This document shows positions 9,434-18,932 of a stretch of 64,000 nucleotides of DNA, one piece after another. Within the stretch, counting starts at the first letter, position 1; each line of letters opens with the position of its first letter. The translations under genes and the position numbers were made by a program. Origin of the DNA: Polyangium mundeleinium (GTDB lineage Bacteria > Myxococcota_A > Polyangia > Polyangiales > Polyangiaceae); the NCBI RefSeq assembly GCF_028369105.1, contig NZ_JAQNDO010000001.1:2225711-2289710 (forward strand), in the 5' to 3' direction. The notes under the pieces are model-generated. The model did no database searches and was not told where the DNA came from. It saw nothing but the letters and a program-made list of their open reading frames with translations.

Positions 9434-11074
9434 CTGCGTTCTGCGGGGATGCCGGTAAGGCGTTGAGCACGCGCATCCCCACGCTCGAGCGCTGCAACGT
9501 TGGCATACTGCGTTCTGCGGGGATGCCGGTAAGGCGTTGAGCACCGCGGCATCACCTCATCCAGCATCCTGGTGAGTTTCTGCGTTCTGCGGGGATGCCG
9601 GTGAGGCGTTGAGCACTTGTTGAGCCAGCCACCCTTCGGGGTCAGGAGTTCTGCGTTCTGCGGGGATGCCGGTAAGGCGTTGAGCACACCGTGAGTCCGT
9701 CGAGCGCGCCGGCTGTGCCGTTGCTGCGTTCTGCGGGGATGCCGGTAAGGCGTTGAGCACTAATGAAGATGCTTGGCGCCTTCCCAGTCGGCAACTTCTG
9801 CGTTCTGCGGGGATGCCGGTAAGGCGTTGAGCACGTCTAGAGTGGGTTTGGTGTCTAGACATAGTTGAGGCTGCGTTTAGCGGGAATGCCGGTAAGGCGT
9901 TGAGCACATCGCGTAATTTGCGATGTCCTTGAGCGTGTCCTCGATGCTGCGTTCAGCGGGGATGCCGGTAAGGCGTTGAGCACCCGTATTTCCGGGATCC
10001 GTCGAACACGTAAAGGGGCTGCGTTCAGCGGGGATGCCGGTAAGGCGTTGAGCACGCAATCGCCCTCTTGATGGCTTTCATCGAAACGAACTGCGTTCAG
10101 CGGGGATGCCGGTAAGGCGTTGAGCACCCGCAGTCGGTCTGTTGGAACGGCCCGAATTTTTCTGCGTTCAGCGGGGATGCCGGTATGGCGTTGAGCACGT
10201 GCCCGCGTCCCCGGCCGTCGCCGTGCCCTCGTACCTGCGTTCAGCGGGGATGCCGGTAAGGCGTCGAGCACGGAGCGGCGAGCACGATCGTGCCGAAGTT
10301 GCCCGGGTACTGCGTTCAGCGGGGATGCCGGCAAGGCGTTGAGCACCGCGCCGCCACTTGCGCCCAGAATGCCGGCCCCACTGCGTTCAGCGGTGATGCC
10401 GGTAAGGCGTTGAGCACCCGATCCGTCCCTCTCAGGTCACGTTATTGCCTCTGTGTTCAGCGGGGATGCCGATAAGGCGTTGAGCACTCGCCTTCCGTGG
10501 GGGCGAGCCGATCGGCGTGGCCGCTGCGTTCAGCGGTGATGCCGGTAAGGCGTTGAGCACTTATTGATCACGCTGTCGCTCTCGGGCTTGTCGGAGCCAC
10601 TGCATTCCGCGGGGATGCCGGTAAGGCGTTGAGCACTCGGCCTTGACGGTGATGGCGTATTGGTTGACGCCCTCTGCGTTCAGCGGGGATGCCGGTAAGG
10701 CGTTGAGCACTCCCCCTCCCAGTCGAGGTAGGCCGTGGCCTCGTAGCTGCGTTCCGCGGTGATGCCGGTAAGGCGTTGAGCACTAGAACTTGGTGTTGTT
10801 CAGGATGTAGAACCGCCCGCTGCGTTCAGCGGGGATGCCGGTAAGGCGTTGAGCACTTCACTTCGCAGCCCCCACTGACGTTGTTGTCCTTCTGCTTTTT
10901 GCGGGGATGCCGTTAAGGCGTTGAGCACAACTCGCGGTCGTCGATCTCCTGGATGTCCTTGGCAGCTACATTCTGCACGGATGCCGATGAGGCGTTGAAC
11001 ACCACAGGACGGCCATAAGATGCAGCAAGTTCCACTGCTGCATTCTGCAAGAAATGCCGCTCAGGCATTGCCCC
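9434..11074 (+). CRISPR. CRISPR array: 23 repeat units of 37 bp, 22 spacers of 33-39 bp
   Basis: Repeats start at 9434, 9508, 9580, 9651, 9724, 9798, 9871, 9947, 10019, 10091, 10162, 10235, 10310, 10381, 10451, 10524, 10600, 10674, 10747, 10820, 10892, 10966 and 11038. Each begins CTGCGTTC and ends GGCGTTGAGCAC; a short GCC-GGTAA-GGC hairpin lies near the 3' part. The first six carry TTCTGCGGGG; from the seventh on most carry TTCAGCGGGG, with scattered one-base variants. The last three (10892, 10966, 11038) are increasingly degenerate, so the right side is the trailer. On the plus strand the repeat ends TTGAGCAC, similar to the usual ATTGAAAC-type 5' handle, which also favours left-to-right transcription. 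All spacers differ. It lies 1.3 kb from the cmr operon and is the likely guide source. Confidence 0.97.
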
Positions 11075-11146
11075 TTGCCCTCCTCCACGCCCTCTCCGAC
11101 CCCGAAACCCCGCCCCGCCCCCGTCGCCTCGTGCCGACAGCTCCGC

Positions 11147-11404
11147 GTCATCGTGACGCGAGGGGGGCACCGCGTGGCGACGGGCACACGTCACCGTCAC
11201 GCGAAGGGGTCCCCTCGTGGCGACGGGCACACGTCACCGTGACGCGAAGGGGTCGCCACGTGGCGACGGGCACGCGTCATCGTGACGCGAGGGGGTCACC
11301 TCGTGGCGACAGGCACATGTCACCGTGACGCGAGGGGGTCGCCGCGTGGCGACGGGCACAGGTCATCGTGACGCGCGGGGGTCGCCATGCGGCGACCGGC
11401 GCGG
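11147..11404. repeat. Six tandem 43-bp palindromic repeats
   Basis: Units start at 11147, 11190, 11233, 11276, 11319 and 11362, an exact 43-bp period; a seventh decayed copy may begin at 11405. Each unit contains two nested palindromes: GTCACCGTGAC (or a close variant) and GTCGCCACGTGGCGAC, the latter a perfect 16-bp palindrome in the third unit. The period is not a multiple of three and frames are cut by stops, so it is not coding. It fills most of the 386 bp between the array and the 3' end of the membrane protein gene. It could be a protein-binding array, a multi-hairpin transcription barrier or a selfish repeat. Confidence 0.9.
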
Positions 11405-11460
11405 TCGTCTCCGACGAAGCCTGCGACCCGCCCCGAGACCCGCCTCCGCGCCGCCTCCCT

Positions 11461-12180
11461 TCACGACATCGATTGCGTCAGCATCAGCAGCGTCGCTGCG
11501 TGCTGCGCTGCCGTCACCGGCGTCTGCGCGAACGTCGCCACCGATCGCTCGCTCAGCTCTTCGATGATCCCAGGCGGCAAGGCCACCCCGGGGCTATACA
11601 GGACCACGGCGGGTCTCCTGTCGTTTATCGCCTTCGTGTATTCCTTTTTGCAAACCTCTGCCCCGAGAAACACGATCACGTCGGCCACTTCGATGCGCTC
11701 CACGAACCGCGTGAACCCCAGCCGTTCCAGCGCTGCCTTCACCCGCCCCGCGTCCTGCTCCCCCACGAGCGCGATCGCCTTGTCCTTGCAGCGCACCTTC
11801 CGGAGGATCTCCGCCTTCAACCCTTCGAAGGCGCCGGTCATCCGCGACGCATCATCTTTGAGAAGCTTGTCCACGGCCGCGTCCACGAGCCCCTCGAATC
11901 CTTTTTCGTTGACCCGCTTTCTCAGCGAGACCCAAAAGAGGGCGCTGAGCACAGCGACGATCGTGCCTCCGACCGAGAGCGCGACGAGCACGTAATCACG
12001 CTGCTTCGTCAGCTCTTCGACCTTCCCTTCGAGCTTCGTGATCTTCTCCTTCGTCGCGCTGAGCTCCAGCTCCGCGCGTACCAGCCTCTCCCCCGCCGCG
12101 CTCTCCTCCGCCGCGGCCGCCGCGCCCGAAACACCCAGCCACGCGCCCACCATCACGCCCGCGATCCACCTGCGCACCAT
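11461..12180 (-). CDS. Membrane protein with coiled coil and cytosolic Rossmann-like domain; candidate type III effector
   Basis: ATG at 12180 follows an AGGAG-type site; 239 residues. Residues 1-24 look like a signal peptide, 31-61 a charged coiled coil that should lie outside the membrane, and 63-86 a transmembrane helix. Residues 133-239 alternate strand and helix: KAIALVG, AGRVKAALERLGF, ADVIVFLG, AVVLYSPG, VATFAQTP. This looks like a receiver/TIR-like or CARF-like Rossmann fold, but I see no known catalytic or CARF signature. The gene diverges from cmr1 with only 166 bp between the starts and sits between the array and the Cas operon. A role as a membrane effector or sensor of Cas10 signals is my inference; an unrelated envelope protein is possible. 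Confidence 0.65.
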   Translation of the reverse strand: MVRRWIAGVMVGAWLGVSGAAAAAEESAAGERLVRAELELSATKEKITKLEGKVEELTKQRDYVLVALSVGGTIVAVLSALFWVSLRKRVNEKGFEGLVDAAVDKLLKDDASRMTGAFEGLKAEILRKVRCKDKAIALVGEQDAGRVKAALERLGFTRFVERIEVADVIVFLGAEVCKKEYTKAINDRRPAVVLYSPGVALPPGIIEELSERSVATFAQTPVTAAQHAATLLMLTQSMS

Positions 12181-12248
12181 CCACCTCGCTCCTGACCCCC
12201 CGGCAGCCTACCTGTGCGCGCGGCCTGTGGGTAGCCTCGCGAAGAGGC

Positions 12249-12277
12249 TTGCGTTCCGGACATCGATTTGTTCTAGT
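12249..12277 (+). promoter_or_regulatory. Possible promoter of the cmr operon
   Basis: TTGCGT at 12249-12254 and TCTAGT at 12272-12277 are spaced by 17 bp, a fair sigma-70 match in the short region between the divergent genes. It would give a transcript starting near 12284, leaving about 60 nt before the GTG at 12347 and almost no leader before the ATG at 12287, which favours the GTG. Confidence 0.3.
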
Positions 12278-12346
12278 CCCTACCTCATGGGGACCTCCCT
12301 CCCTCCGGATCCGAAACCACGCGCACGTCGTTTCCTCGGAGGCCCC

Positions 12347-13647
12347 GTGCGCAAGGCTCTCCGGGTCGAGCTCTGCACCGTCACGCCCATTCTCGGCGGC
12401 GGTTCTGTGGCCCGCGAGCTCGACGACGAGGTCCCGATCCGGCCGCCGAGCCTTCGCGGCGCGCTCCGCTTCTGGTGGCGCGCGCTCTATGGCCATTCGT
12501 ATCCGGATGCCAAGGAGCTCGCGAAAGCGGAGGGGGAGCGCTTCGGCGCTGCCGCGGGGAGCGAGGGAAGACGCTCGCCCGTCGACGTGTGCGTGTTCGA
12601 TGTCCGACCGGGAAACAAGGATTCGAACGATATCAACCTCCGGCAGCCCGACGCCTACGCGCTCTGGCCCGCGCGCGCCACACGCAACGGCGAACCCCCC
12701 GCGCCCCGCTGGAAGCCTGGCCTCTCCTTCACCCTCGAAGTGCAGGTGCCCGAGGCGCACGAGCCCGAGATCCGGAACGCGCTCCGTGCCTTCCTCCTCT
12801 TCGGCGGATATGGCTCACGCACGCGCCGCGGCCTCGGCAGCTTGACCGTCGTGGGCCGGGATGCGGCGAATTGGCTCCCCGCGAGGCGACGATGGCCGAG
12901 CTCACGCGCCTCTTCGGCGAACCCCTTTTTGCCCGCATCGACGGCCTGCGCCCCGGCGATACCCCTTCGCTGCGCGGCGCCCGCCTCTTCGTCGGCGAGC
13001 CACGCGCCGATGAGGGGGCCTGGCACGAGGCGCTCGGATGGCTGCGTGAGTTCCGCCAAGGCACGCCTCGGCAGAAGAATGCACCCGCCGATGCTTCCGC
13101 TCGGGTGCCGGGGGATGGACGTCCCGGCCGCTCGAACTGGCCCGAGCCCGACAAGATGCGCCACCTCGCGCGCATGCGCCCCGGCCAGACGCAATGGCAA
13201 CACCCGCCCCGGTACAACGGCGACCCCGCCTGGGCTCGCGCGGCGTTCGGCATTCCCATCATCGGCCAATTCCAGCGGAGAGACAGGCACAAGGAGCTTT
13301 ACCCGCATCCCGAGCCCGAGGATTTCGAGCTCCGGTTCCGCCTCACGCCCGGGGGACCTCTTTACGATCGCCTCGCGTCTCCCCTCATCGTCAAGCCGCT
13401 CCCGCTCCTTGGCAATCGCCTCGCCCCCATGGCGCTCTGGCTTCATCGCGGCTACCCCGCAGGGGCGAAGGTCGTGTTGAAGTGGAAAGGGGCAAACAGC
13501 GCCGTCCCCGGATCCGAGGCCCCCTTCGACAAGCTCGTCGGGCAGGGCGAGACGCCCCGCTTTCGCCCGCTCCAGGGGAAAACCTCGCTGAAGGACGCGT
13601 TCCTCGATTGGCTCACGCGGCAGCCCCGCGTCACGGAGCTTCGCTGA
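12347..13647 (+). CDS. cmr1: Type III-B CRISPR RAMP protein Cmr1, with apparent -1 frameshift
   Basis: Cmr1 sits at the end of the Cmr complex that binds crRNA and captures target RNA. The GTG at 12347 is preferred (GGAGG 4 bases upstream; product opens with the RAMP strand ALRVELCTVTPILGGG); ATG 12287 is an alternative without a ribosome site. The N-terminal half, with RPPSLRGALRFWWRALYG and GGYGSRTRRGLGSL, ends in one frame near 12880; the C-terminal half (from AELTRLFGEPLFARIDG to the stop) continues in the -1 frame. The switch lies at TGGCTCCCCGCGAGG (12872-12886), whose CCCC run would permit slippage. Both halves look intact, so sequencing error, a fresh mutation or recoding are all possible. 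One base separates it from cmr2. Confidence 0.88.
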
Positions 13648-13648
13648 C

Positions 13649-15403
13649 ATGCCGCACCTCCTCCTCGTGCACATCGGGCCGGTGCAGGCCTTCATCGCCC
13701 AGGCGCGGCGCACGCGTGACCTCTGGTTTGGCAGCCATCTGCTCGTCGAGCTCAGCCGGGCCGCGGCGCGCGCGCTCGCGTCGATTCCCGGCACGAAGCT
13801 GATCTTCCCCGCGCTCGACGAAAAAGGCGAGCTCACGGGCGACATCGCCAACAAGATCCTCGCCGAGGTCGAGCAGGATCCCAAGACGGCTGCCGAGGCG
13901 GCGCGCACCGCGGTGAACAAAGCGCTCCGCGCGCGCTGGGAGACCCTTCGCGAGAAGCTCTCCGCCCTTCTCGACCCCGCGGCGAGGGAGGCGGCCGACG
14001 AGCAGATCGACACGCTCGTCGAGTTCTTCGCGGCCTACGTGCCCCTCTCCGAAGACGATTACCGCGGCGCGCGCGAACGGGTCGAGGAGGAGCTTGCCGC
14101 ACGAAAGACGCTCCGCGACTTCGTGCCCTTCGAGCGCCAGCGCGGCGGCGCGCACAAGTCGAGCCTCGACGGCGCGCGCGAGACCGTCCTCGTGGGCGGC
14201 GAACCCCGCAAGGAGACGCGCAAGCATCCTCTGTTCCAGCAATATCGCATTGGCCTCCGCGAGGAGCTCGACGCCATCGGCCTGCTGAAGCGCGCGGGCG
14301 GTGAGCCGGGGCAGTTCGTCCCCCTTCCCACGATCGGGCTCGCCGCGTACACCACGCGCGCGCGGCAGACACCCCAATGCCAGGAGCCGATGCGCAAGCT
14401 CCTCGAGGCATGCAGGCGCCTCGGCTTTCCGCAGGTTCGATCGAAGGGCCGCCCGTGGGTCGAGCCGTTCCCCTTCGACGCGCAGATCTTCCTCCCCGAC
14501 CGATGGGAGCCGTATTTCGACGACCTGGGCATTCCCGAATCACCGCGCGCCTTCGGCAAGCAATACATCGAGCCGCTCCACGACCTCCTCGGCGAGCCGC
14601 ACCCGTACGTCGCTTGCCTCGTCGCGGACGGCGATCGAATGGGCGCGGCGATCGATTCCCTGGAGAGCGCCGAGGCGCATCAGCGGTTTTCGCGCAAGCT
14701 CTCGCGGCTTCCGGAGATCGCGCGCGAGATCGTGGAGAGGGACCACCACGGCGTCGTCGTGTACGCGGGCGGCGACGATGTCCTCGCCTTCGTGACGATC
14801 CCGGACGCGCTCGCGTGTGCGAAGGCGCTGCGCGAGCAATTCATCGCCCTCATGGATGAATCGCTGCCCGGCGCGGCGCCCCGGCCGACGTTGTCGGTGG
14901 GGATCGGTCTCGGGCACGTGCTCGAGAGCCTCGGCGACCTCCTGGCCCTCGGCCGTGAAGCGGAGCAAGCGGCGAAGGTCGAACGAGACTCCCTCGCCCT
15001 CCTCGTCGAGATGCATACCGGCGCGCGCAAGGCGTATATCGCGCGCTTCGATGCCGACCCCCTATCGATCCTTCAAAAGGACATCGCCACGCTCGCCACG
15101 CTGCCCATGAAGAAGGTCCACCAGGTCGCCGCCATGCTGCGGCGCTTGCCGCATCGCGAGGAACGGCTCGACGACGCCGCGCATTGGGCGCGGCTCCTCC
15201 GGCTCGATACAAGCGCGACGCTCGCGAGGTCCGAGCTCGGCGCGGGGGCCGCAGCCCCGGACCCGGCCGCGCTTGGCCTCGACCTCGAAGGGGACGATTA
15301 CGCTCGGATGCATGTGGCCATCGAGGCGTGGTGCGGGCGCATGGAAGTGGCCGCCTTCCTCGCGAGAGCCGAGCCGAGCGTGAAGAAGGGAGAGGCGCGA
15401 TGA
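13649..15403 (+). CDS. cmr2: Type III-B Cas10/Cmr2, HD-less, GGDD intact
   Basis: The large subunit of the Cmr complex, 584 residues. It starts directly with the family's HIGPVQAFIAQARRTRDLW motif; the N-terminal HD nuclease domain found in many Cas10 proteins is absent, and the protein is shorter than typical Cmr2 (often 800 or more). The palm cyclase keeps both acidic sites: ADGDRMG (D327, D329) and YAGGDD (G374-D377). By family knowledge this should make cyclic oligoadenylates when target RNA is bound, while single-strand DNase activity should be missing. Immunity would thus rest on Cmr4 RNA cleavage and on signalled effectors. The gene lies 1 bp after cmr1 and overlaps cmr3 by 4 bp. Confidence 0.95.
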   Translation: MPHLLLVHIGPVQAFIAQARRTRDLWFGSHLLVELSRAAARALASIPGTKLIFPALDEKGELTGDIANKILAEVEQDPKTAAEAARTAVNKALRARWETLREKLSALLDPAAREAADEQIDTLVEFFAAYVPLSEDDYRGARERVEEELAARKTLRDFVPFERQRGGAHKSSLDGARETVLVGGEPRKETRKHPLFQQYRIGLREELDAIGLLKRAGGEPGQFVPLPTIGLAAYTTRARQTPQCQEPMRKLLEACRRLGFPQVRSKGRPWVEPFPFDAQIFLPDRWEPYFDDLGIPESPRAFGKQYIEPLHDLLGEPHPYVACLVADGDRMGAAIDSLESAEAHQRFSRKLSRLPEIAREIVERDHHGVVVYAGGDDVLAFVTIPDALACAKALREQFIALMDESLPGAAPRPTLSVGIGLGHVLESLGDLLALGREAEQAAKVERDSLALLVEMHTGARKAYIARFDADPLSILQKDIATLATLPMKKVHQVAAMLRRLPHREERLDDAAHWARLLRLDTSATLARSELGAGAAAPDPAALGLDLEGDDYARMHVAIEAWCGRMEVAAFLARAEPSVKKGEAR

Positions 15404-16572
15404 GCCTGGTCCACTTCGCCCTCCGTCCCCGCGACGGCATCTTCAGCAAGGATGGCCGCGGGTATTACACGAGTGAAATCGGTCGCGGCCATGGACACGC
15501 GTGGCCCCTGCCGCCCACGATTCGCGGCGCGCTCCGCGCAGCCCTCGGGCGAGGGATCATGGAGCACGAGGGACGGCTCCTCCCGCCCAGCGAATACGAG
15601 GAGAGGACACGCGCGCTCGCGCTGGAAAAGGTCATCACCCTCTACAGGCCGCGTGGCCATGCGTTCGCGCCGGAGCACCGCGTATGGCCCACGCCTTCGG
15701 ATGCGCTCCATACATCCTCGGGCGAGGCGTCGCTCCTCACGCGGCTCTCCCCCGAGCCCCCGCGCGGCGGCACGCTCGCGGGTCAGAAGGAGCCCGCGCT
15801 CGAAGCCCTGTGGCGCCCGTACCCGGGCAAGAAGGGCAAGGCCCAGAGGCCTCCGCCGTTCTGGTCCGACGCCGCCATGATGCAATGGCTGTGGAGCGAC
15901 GAGATTCCGAGCATCCACGCCGCACCGACGCTCGTGCCGTCCCGGCGCACGGACGTGCACGTGACCCTCGAGCCGGACACGCTCACCGCCACACCATCGA
16001 TGATGTTCTCCTCGGAAATCGTGGAGACGACCTCCTCGGAGGGGGGCGATTGGGCCCTCGGCGTCTCCGTCCAGCTCCCCGAGGGGCTGACGCTCCCGCC
16101 CGGACCGATCACGCTGGGCAACCGCCGCCGCCTCGCGCCCCAGGAGGCCGTCGAAGCCGCCCTCTTCGCACCCCCGGACGATCGGCTGGTGGCGACGCCG
16201 GGCCTGCGCCTCGTCTTGGCGACGCCTGCGCATTTCGAGCGCGGCGTCGTGCCGGATGGATTCGAGGCCACCGCGGAACACGTCTACGTCGGCCGATTGC
16301 CGCACGTCGATGGGAAGGTCGTGCTTCGGTCCGCGCTCGTCCCGGGGCCCGAGGACGTCTCGGGCTGGGACATGGCCAAGCGCGCGCCGAAGCCCACGCG
16401 CCGCCTCGTGCCCGCGGGTTCGGTGTACTTCTTCGTCAAGCAGGACGGCGCCCCTTTCGAGCGAGCCGAGCTTCGCGCGCTCTGGCTCACGCAATGGGGG
16501 CGCGGGACCGAGGACGGCCTCGGTGTCGTGCTCCCCGGTCGATGGATCCCCGAGCGCAAGGAAAACGCATGA
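15400..16572 (+). CDS. cmr3: Type III-B CRISPR protein Cmr3
   Basis: Cmr3 (Cas5 group) holds the crRNA 5' handle and bridges Cas10 to the Cmr4 filament. ATG at 15400 overlaps the cmr2 stop (ATGA); 390 residues, normal length. The N-terminus MSLVHFALRPRDGIFSKDGR and the helix PLPPTIRGALRAALG are the usual Cmr3 opening (a substrate-loop after the first strand, then the RAMP helix). The C-terminal part ends with a glycine-rich loop, LTQWGRGTEDGLGVVLPG. Its stop overlaps the start of cmr4 by 4 bp, indicating coupled translation within one operon. Confidence 0.93.
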   Translation: MSLVHFALRPRDGIFSKDGRGYYTSEIGRGHGHAWPLPPTIRGALRAALGRGIMEHEGRLLPPSEYEERTRALALEKVITLYRPRGHAFAPEHRVWPTPSDALHTSSGEASLLTRLSPEPPRGGTLAGQKEPALEALWRPYPGKKGKAQRPPPFWSDAAMMQWLWSDEIPSIHAAPTLVPSRRTDVHVTLEPDTLTATPSMMFSSEIVETTSSEGGDWALGVSVQLPEGLTLPPGPITLGNRRRLAPQEAVEAALFAPPDDRLVATPGLRLVLATPAHFERGVVPDGFEATAEHVYVGRLPHVDGKVVLRSALVPGPEDVSGWDMAKRAPKPTRRLVPAGSVYFFVKQDGAPFERAELRALWLTQWGRGTEDGLGVVLPGRWIPERKENA

Positions 16573-17468
16573 AGACCCGCCCCTATCTGCTCCACGCCCT
16601 CTCGCCTTTGCACGTCGGCACGGGCCAGGCGGTGGACGTCATCGATCTGCCCATCGCGCGCATGCGGTCGACGGGGGTCCCTCTGGTCCCGGGGTCGGCA
16701 ATCAAAGGCGTCCTGCGCGAGGAGCAGCGCCGGAGGCGAGGAGAGGCGGACGCGACCTTCCTCGCGCTCTTCGGGCCCCTGCGCAAGATCAAGGGGCCCG
16801 AGGGGGATACCGATTTCGATCACGCAGGCGCGGTCGTGGCCTCGGATGCGCGGCTGCTCGCGCTGCCCGTGCGGAGCTTTCGAGGCACGTTCGCCCTCGT
16901 GACGTCGCCGCTGCTCTTGCAATGGGCACGGCGCGATCTCGAAGGTGTGGCCGGGCTCCCCGGGCCCATCGCGCCCTTCGACGGGCCGCGTGCGCTCGTG
17001 TCGCGTGAGCCGAAGAACCAGCACACGGACGGCAAGGTCTACCTCGAGGATCTCGACCTCGAAGCGAAGAAGGACGAGCGCGTGGCGTCGTGGTCGAAGT
17101 TCTTGCTCGAACGGTTCCCCGAGGCGGAGCGCGGGGTGTTCGAGGGGCGCCTCGTCGTGGTCGACGACGAGACGATGACGTTCTTGTGGGAGACGGCGAC
17201 CCAGGTCGATACACGCATCCGTATCGATCCCGAAAGGGGAACGGTCGCGGAGGGCGCCTTGTGGACGGAGGAGAGCCTGCCCGCCGAGACGTTGCTCGTT
17301 GGCGTGCTCGCGGCCGACCGGAGCTACAAGAAGGGCGTCGAGATGCGCGCCGAAGCGGTCCTCGATGCGGCGCTCGACAAGCTCGAATACGTGCAGTTCG
17401 GCGGCAAAGCCACCATCGGGCGAGGCCAGTGCCGCATTCTGCCCTTCCCGGCCCAGGGAGATCGCTGA
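16569..17468 (+). CDS. cmr4: Type III-B CRISPR backbone RNase Cmr4
   Basis: Cmr4 (Cas7 group) is the multi-copy backbone that cuts target RNA at 6-nt steps. ATG at 16569 overlaps cmr3; 299 residues. The N-terminus reads HALSPLHVGTGQAVDVIDLPIAR, and the catalytic loop aspartate falls exactly at position 26 (D26), as in characterised Cmr4 proteins. The RAMP helix VPLVPGSAIKGVLREEQRRR follows. The C-terminus has the glycine-rich loop QFGGKATIGRGQC. All of this predicts an active target-RNA endonuclease. The stop and the cmr5 start share one base (TGATG). Confidence 0.95.
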   Translation: MKTRPYLLHALSPLHVGTGQAVDVIDLPIARMRSTGVPLVPGSAIKGVLREEQRRRRGEADATFLALFGPLRKIKGPEGDTDFDHAGAVVASDARLLALPVRSFRGTFALVTSPLLLQWARRDLEGVAGLPGPIAPFDGPRALVSREPKNQHTDGKVYLEDLDLEAKKDERVASWSKFLLERFPEAERGVFEGRLVVVDDETMTFLWETATQVDTRIRIDPERGTVAEGALWTEESLPAETLLVGVLAADRSYKKGVEMRAEAVLDAALDKLEYVQFGGKATIGRGQCRILPFPAQGDR

Positions 17469-17839
17469 TGCCCCGCACGCGCGATCAGGAGCGAGCGCTC
17501 CACGCCTACGCAAGGGTAAAGGCCGCCGTGGAGGCCGGCTTGAAGGACGAGTACAAGGTCCTCGTCCATGGCCTCGCCCCGACGGTGCAGCGCAATGGTC
17601 TCGCGGCGGCCATTTCGTTCATCGAGCGCGAGAAGCCCCGAACCAAGGCGGCCGGGCGGTTCCTCGACGATCTCGCCGCGGCGTCGCTCCCCCACCTCGA
17701 TGGAAGGAAGGGCGATACGCTGCCCGGGGACATTCGTGGTCTCCAGGTGCCCGAATACATGCTCGTGACACGAGAGGTCCTGAAGCTCGCGATCTGGTTT
17801 CGCCGGGCCGTCCAGGCGACGATCCCGGAAAGGAAATGA
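17468..17839 (+). CDS. cmr5: Type III-B CRISPR small subunit Cmr5
   Basis: The small alpha-helical subunit (Cas11 group) forms the belly filament that contacts crRNA-target duplex. It has 123 residues, the usual size, and is all helical with a basic N-terminal region (RTRDQERALHAYARVKAAVE). The conserved LPxxVxxNGLAxAxxF-like segment appears as LAPTVQRNGLAAAISFIE. Its ATG overlaps the cmr4 stop by one base and the gene ends 4 bp before cmr6. Confidence 0.93.
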   Translation: MPRTRDQERALHAYARVKAAVEAGLKDEYKVLVHGLAPTVQRNGLAAAISFIEREKPRTKAAGRFLDDLAAASLPHLDGRKGDTLPGDIRGLQVPEYMLVTREVLKLAIWFRRAVQATIPERK

Positions 17840-17843
17840 CGCC

Positions 17844-18932
17844 GTGCGGAACGTGCTCGACGAGCTCGACGTCCAGACGGACACCCACGCGGGGCTGGTG
17901 CACGACGTGTACGCGCCGGCGAAGGTATTGGGCACCGAGGACGAGCGGAAGAAGCTCGACCGGCGGCTCCAGTCCATCGTGAAGCTCTCCACGCCCAAGG
18001 GATATGACGAAGCCTTCCGGCGCTGGGAGGCCGCGCTCGGGCGCATGAAGGCCCATTCCTTCCGGATGAGGGCCCGGTCGCGGCTGCTCGTGGGGACCGG
18101 GGTTCCCTCCGCGACCGAGGTGGGCCTCACCTTCCACCGGACATGGGGCGTCCCCGTGATCCCCGGCTCGTCGTTGAAAGGGCTCGTGGCCGCGTATGTG
18201 CAGGCGACGTACGGGCCCGCGCCTGGTGAAGTCGACCCGGAGCGCGAGCCTTTCCGCGGCGTGCAATGGGACGGGCGCCGCATCGAGCGTGGTCCCGGGG
18301 ACGTCTACCGGAGGATCTTCGGCGCGCCGGCGACGGACGCCGGAGAGAGCGCGCAGCGCGGCGGCGTCATCTTTCACGACGCGCTCTGGAGCCCGGAGGG
18401 CGCGCCAAAGCCCTTCGGGCTCGACGTGCTGACCGTCCACCACGGCAGCTACTACAGCTCGCAAACACCGCCCAGCGACTACGAGAGCCCGACGCCGGTC
18501 TCCTTTCTGACGGTTCGTCCCGGGTCGGAGTTCCTGATCGCCTGGAGCGTCCCGGAGGGCGAGGAGGAGCTCGCCGAGCGCGTGGGCAAGTACATCGAAG
18601 AGGCCCTCGGGGCGTGGGGCATCGGCGCGAAGACGGCGGCCGGCTACGGTCGTTTGACGCGCGTGCCGTCGAGCGGAGGCGAGGCAAAGCCCCGCGCGGC
18701 CGACGCGGAGCCCGAGGTCGTCGCGCGGCTGGGGGCCCTGCTCGACAAGACGAAGGAGGGCAAGCCGCAGCGCGAGGTGCTCGCGGAGATCGAGCGCGAT
18801 TTGCTCGACCCGCTCCGGAGCGCGCCCGAGGTGTGGCGCGGGCGGATCGTCCGGAGGATCGAGAAGACCCTGAAGAGTCCGAGGCTCGTGGACGACGTGA
18901 AGGCCCTGTCGAAGCGGATCCTCGGGAGCTAG
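17844..18932 (+). CDS. cmr6: Type III-B CRISPR RAMP protein Cmr6
   Basis: Cmr6 caps the Cmr4 filament at the crRNA 3' side. GTG start at 17844, 4 bp after cmr5, gives 362 residues. The RAMP region reads RLLVGTGVPSATEVGLTFHR, then GVPVIPGSSLKGLVAAYVQ, and the C-terminal glycine-rich loop is WGIGAKTAAGYGRL. An extra helical tail of about 85 residues (from around 275) follows the RAMP fold and is rich in Glu/Arg. It is the last gene of the operon; 49 bp separate it from the next gene, which is unrelated in type. Confidence 0.93.
   Translation: MRNVLDELDVQTDTHAGLVHDVYAPAKVLGTEDERKKLDRRLQSIVKLSTPKGYDEAFRRWEAALGRMKAHSFRMRARSRLLVGTGVPSATEVGLTFHRTWGVPVIPGSSLKGLVAAYVQATYGPAPGEVDPEREPFRGVQWDGRRIERGPGDVYRRIFGAPATDAGESAQRGGVIFHDALWSPEGAPKPFGLDVLTVHHGSYYSSQTPPSDYESPTPVSFLTVRPGSEFLIAWSVPEGEEELAERVGKYIEEALGAWGIGAKTAAGYGRLTRVPSSGGEAKPRAADAEPEVVARLGALLDKTKEGKPQREVLAEIERDLLDPLRSAPEVWRGRIVRRIEKTLKSPRLVDDVKALSKRILGS

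Follow-up and report, generated by a model that had tools for sequence, protein, structure and literature searches.

Cmr1, the protein encoded at the head of a type III-B CRISPR locus in Polyangium mundeleinium, is written in the deposited genome as two halves in different reading frames, and the question is whether this break is an error of the sequence, a recent mutation that inactivated the gene or a site of programmed recoding, the three options listed in the original prediction. The window, that is, the whole stretch of 64,000 nucleotides that was analyzed, carries TGGCTCCCCGCGAGG at 12872-12886, where the prediction had placed the break. The record does contain the frame break; a one-base assembly error is its most likely cause and a recent real deletion the next, whereas recoding by program and a protein in two pieces are conceivable but unsupported.

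The N-terminal part matched the Pfam RAMPs family (PF03787, 9.1e-21), the PADLOC Cmr1 model (1.5e-22) and TIGR01894 Cmr1 (1.2e-13, 51.6 bits, above the cut-off of 28.65). The C-terminal part had no match in Pfam, NCBIfam or PADLOC; alignments with 37 distinct Cmr1 homologs placed it in their second half, the best at about 50% identity. Pfam likewise covered only the first half of L014 and L015, the two intact homologs scanned with it, and in L014 one PADLOC Cmr1 model extended into the second half. The break falls ten to twelve residues past the first RAMP domain. For the intact homolog L014, the top sequence match in the PDB was a solved chain named Cmr1-MntA (9z7q, 9z7v and 9z7x).

The position of the break was fixed by homology and, separately, by composition. 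The gene reads ...NWLP to 12880 and continues as REAT... in the -1 frame. BLASTP paired residue 178 of the N-terminal part with residue 230 of one homolog (L026) and residue 1 of the C-terminal part with residue 231, and in another homolog (L024) the two parts abut at residues 222 and 223. No residue was gained or lost at the junction relative to the homologs, and the alignment with the 37 distinct homologs put the junction between P178 and R179. A homology-free Viterbi model of codon usage switched frame at 12881. The G+C content by codon position was.72/.54/.84 in the N-terminal frame and.74/.53/.82 in the C-terminal frame, and either pattern vanished if its frame was followed past the break. 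The alignment, the codon model and the G+C pattern thus agree on the site and on two well-kept halves in different frames, and the predicted -1 direction of the shift at CCCC is borne out by the abutting halves and the switch of the codon model. Because the halves abut exactly and the informative homologs are all read in a single frame, the deposited cmr1 is short of one base (or has two extra) at or beside the C run at 12877-12880, and it is at this run that the single uninterrupted frame of a Cmr1 gene gives way to two. The GTG start at 12347 had a ribosome-binding pairing value of -8.8. A run of four C or four G was found in 11.5% of the 16-nt intervals of the window, cmr1 itself has 26 runs of at least four identical bases, and the presence of such a run at the break is not striking in itself.

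Features of the cmr locus, with positions in the window and the evidence for each
Feature	Position	Strand	Evidence
CRISPR array, 22 repeats of 37 nt	9434..11002	.	repeat families D1, D2
cmr1 N-terminal part, first RAMP/RRM domain, 178 aa, ends NWLP	12347..12880	+	GTG start after GGAGG site
CCCC run at frame break	12877..12880	+	sequence, homolog alignment, codon model
cmr1 C-terminal part, -1 frame, 255 aa + stop (13645-13647)	12880..13647	+	homolog alignment
Candidate ATG for separate start of C-terminal part	12892..12894	+	C-terminal frame, GAGG 5 nt upstream
cmr2/cas10, intact	13649..15403	+	TIGR02577 4.2e-66; Pfam Cas10-Cmr2_palm2 2.5e-29
cmr3, intact	15400..16572	+	PADLOC Cmr3 2.8e-54; TIGR01888 1.1e-12, under its cut-off
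cmr4, intact	16569..17468	+	TIGR02580 3.7e-66
cmr5, intact	17468..17839	+	Pfam Cas_Cmr5 5.4e-19; PADLOC Cmr5 1.4e-22
cmr6, intact	17844..18932	+	TIGR01898 4.5e-41

The prediction had described the other cmr genes as intact, and family matches confirmed this for all five, cmr2 through cmr6. The start of cmr3 is our choice, an ATG that overlaps the cmr2 stop; that of cmr5, which scored just under the cut-off of TIGR01881, was taken from the translation. The RAMP-family matches in the genome numbered three, namely cmr4, cmr1 and cmr6; all belong to this locus, so that a second RAMP-family cmr1 elsewhere in the genome was sought and not found. The sole cas1 match in the genome lies about 2 Mb from the cmr locus, at G000:C1:279969-280829. 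The variants of the CRISPR repeat are clustered, the CTGCGTTCTG type making up the first six copies and the CTGCGTTCAG type predominating among those that follow; the final copy (10966) is degenerate. A 43-nt repeat (family D3) is arranged head-to-tail at 11080-11423, in the stretch that separates the array from cmr1. A divergent open reading frame of 239 aa on the minus strand (11461-12180) adjoins cmr1; by eye it has a signal or membrane segment, it had no match over cut-off in Pfam, NCBIfam or PADLOC, and it is possibly an accessory gene of the type III locus.

Among the 63 homologous loci examined (L014-L042 and L063-L096), the C-terminal part was matched in 58, the other five having no match at threshold. 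Of these 58, 48 carry the N-terminal part in the same open frame and none carries it in a different one; in the remaining ten it was not found at threshold, six of these (L016, L018, L028, L030, L034 and L040) having a weaker match in the same frame. The alignment took 37 of the 58 loci, the excluded ones being 14 that were distant (L016, L018, L019, L027-L035, L040 and L041) and seven that were identical to included rows (L067, L070, L068, L079, L039, L083 and L089). Thirty-four of these 37 distinct homologs showed both halves and are informative, and all 34 have them in one unbroken frame. The junction reads WLP in 33 of the 37 homologs, and in three (L071, L026 and L023) there is a run of four at the junction, each read in the normal frame.

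Close relatives of the gene proved scarce. In a DNA search, 23 of 59 related genomes (a count that includes its own) had matches, almost all of them short stretches, and the best outside its own genome (in G039) had 68% identity over 221 query bases. With the C-terminal part as a protein query, a match was present in five of the 59 genomes (own included), in none of five genus-mates and in 22 of the 377 genomes of a phylum sample, again counting its own. A contig scan with the C-terminal part alone found no relative; one with an alignment (A1) found 34 loci, the best at about 50% identity. Across the DNA, protein, phylum-sample and contig searches, no relative was closer than about 50-55% identity.

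The state of preservation of the two halves was measured by a leave-one-out count over 30 rows, the window and 29 homologs, after eight of the 37 homologs (L087, L084, L093, L091, L092, L096, L025 and L095) had been dropped as truncated or divergent. The window departed at one of 40 nearly invariant columns in the N-terminal part and at three of 54 in the C-terminal part. In total departures it ranked sixth of the 30 rows, five of the 29 homologs departing more; L082 departed at 17 of 42 nearly invariant columns in its N-terminal part alone. The original argument against old decay is sustained by these counts, by the five intact cmr genes and by the adjoining array of 22 repeats. Since conserved residues are kept in both halves, the break is either recent or not real.

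The frequency of similar breaks was determined in 60 stretches of 20 kb (1.2 Mb) along contig 1 of the same genome and, with the same codon model, in control genomes, comprising the genus-mates G001 (50 stretches) and G004 (two) and the same-family genomes G024 and G023 (ten each). A candidate break was a switch of frame on one strand with both frames open for more than 75 nt past the switch, and it was called strong if both parts were at least 300 nt. The P. mundeleinium sample had 19 candidates, nine of them strong, the break in cmr1 being additional to the 19. Two candidates, neither strong, were found in 1.0 Mb of G001, none in 0.04 Mb of G004, one, not strong, in 0.2 Mb of G024, and two, one of them strong, in 0.2 Mb of G023; the controls together had five candidates, one of them strong, in 1.44 Mb. 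The rate was about eight times that of G001 (one-sided p = 0.0005 for candidates and 0.004 for strong breaks) and 4.6 times that of all controls (p = 0.0008 and 0.005). Under a looser rule (more than 40 nt open), 29 candidates compared with ten in G001 (p = 0.009) and 15 in all controls (p = 0.005). Against the two low-contig genomes, G023 and G024, alone (0.4 Mb), the difference was not significant, with 15.8 versus 7.5 candidates (p = 0.16) and 7.5 versus 2.5 strong breaks per Mb (p = 0.24).

The candidates are of mixed quality. Twelve of the 19 correspond to a net loss of one base, as do nine of the 13 that have no gap between the two parts. In the other six there is a gap, and some of these (for example L046 and L188, near 13.4 kb) look like neighboring genes. 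Two of the 19 were confirmed by homology, the halves of one (L145) matching residues 1-148 and 152-303 of the Phage_GPD profile and those of the other (L170) residues 6-49 and 54-113 of TipAS; several of those scanned had no Pfam match on one or both sides, and for some the scan covered one side only. In L145 a VgrG-like gene (Phage_GPD; 10265-12417) is spread over three frames. Assembly errors and real pseudogenes are both possible sources of the excess of breaks. That the 13.25 Mb fall into two contigs suggests that the genome was sequenced with long reads, and long-read-only bacterial assemblies usually keep homopolymer-length errors that cause frameshifts (PMC8812927). A literature search returned no report on Polyangium, nanopore and frameshift together.

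Of the three options, sequencing error ranks first, a recent inactivating mutation second, and programmed recoding is without support. On the preferred reading, cmr1 would be an ordinary type III-B gene, and a residual single-base assembly error at a short C run would explain why the deposited sequence is one base short at or beside 12877-12880. The living gene would then encode a normal Cmr1 in one piece, about 433 aa long, which helps to hold the 3' end of the crRNA in the Cmr complex, the role ascribed to Cmr1 in PMC5965380. That the missing base is an assembly error and not a mutation is given a probability of about 0.6, and it is favored because the same assembly contains many similar breaks. 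Against it, four or five C make a short run for an error of the homopolymer kind, and the excess of breaks is not significant over the two low-contig genomes taken alone. That last comparison also leaves room for a genuine slippage deletion of one base in the C run, recent and truncating Cmr1 in this strain, which is tentatively the second choice and rather unlikely. Its product would consist of the first RAMP domain with about 200 foreign residues after it; since the break comes so soon after that domain, the subunit at the 3' end of the crRNA would be without its second lobe in the Cmr complex. The good preservation of both halves is equally expected of a young mutation and of an error. No second RAMP-family cmr1 was found in the genome, and the locus may be dispensable, given that its Cmr1 half was found in none of five genus-mates and the system is sporadic. 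The odds that any one break is real are nevertheless lowered by the high rate of breaks in this genome relative to G001 and to all controls, and the intact state of the five other cmr genes also speaks against a deletion. Phase variation by a long repeat is improbable with a run of no more than four C.

Two further readings would take the deposited sequence as it stands. It is highly unlikely that Cmr1 in this lineage arises through slippage (-1) at a low level on CCCC or is made in two separate lobes. If it were, the amount of full-length Cmr1, and hence the holding of the crRNA 3' end, would be set by recoding. Programmed -1 frameshifting, in which the two overlapping frames would yield the full-length protein, is extremely improbable. 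On CCCC, a P-site tRNA paired with CCC can move back by one base and pair again, and the shifted product aligns with the homologs without a gap at the junction, but none of the 34 informative distinct homologs is shifted. The zero frame, CTC CCC GCG, does not form a tandem X XXY YYZ heptamer and would allow a single P-site slip only. The 77 nt downstream of the break fold at -23.8 kcal/mol compared with a shuffle mean of -27.2 (z +1.08), and a fold of equal or greater stability was reached by 176 of 200 shuffles, which gives no sign of a stimulatory fold among structures other than pseudoknots. Moreover, the unshifted frame meets no stop for about 600 nt, to 13480, so that the alternative product would be a long nonsense fusion. 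The GeneTack survey of prokaryotic frame transitions attributes lone frameshifted genes to indels or sequencing errors and recognizes programmed sites by conserved motifs in clusters (PMC3711429); the break in cmr1, in contrast to such clusters, is a lone case. The word CRISPR is absent from the main text of that survey, and literature searches found neither a programmed frameshift in CRISPR-associated (cas) genes nor ribosomal frameshifting in connection with Cas10 or type III CRISPR. It is likewise very improbable that the C-terminal lobe is started separately at the ATG at 12892 and that the two lobes assemble as two chains. The position of the break just past the first RAMP domain and the GAGG ahead of this ATG would suit such an arrangement, but its ribosome-binding site does not stand out in strength within the window, the pairing energy of -5.2 lying between the 10th (-6.0) and 25th (-4.8) percentiles of 400 random window sites. 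In addition, the N-terminal part has no stop near this ATG, and a split is absent from all 34 informative homologs.

The case serves chiefly as a caution. With a simple detector, this genome yields about 16 candidate frame breaks per Mb compared with 2 per Mb in the genus-mate G001, and because of this high rate a single broken frame in the assembly should not, without reads, be taken as recoding or as loss of defense. Set beside genes with a programmed -1 frameshift, such as dnaX and those of transposases (PMC3711429), cmr1 shares overlapping -1 frames that meet at a homopolymer but has no shift conserved among homologs, slippery heptamer or stimulatory fold. It resembles the indels of long-read assemblies in the loss of a single base at a short C run that breaks the frame and in its place in an assembly with many such breaks, a match made weaker by the lack of a significant excess over two other low-contig genomes. 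From the Cmr1 of other type III-B systems it differs in occupying two frames in this record; it is like them in having a first RAMP domain over the family cut-off, in heading a cmr1-cmr2-cmr3-cmr4-cmr5-cmr6 row beside a CRISPR array and in the alignment of both its halves with intact homologs.
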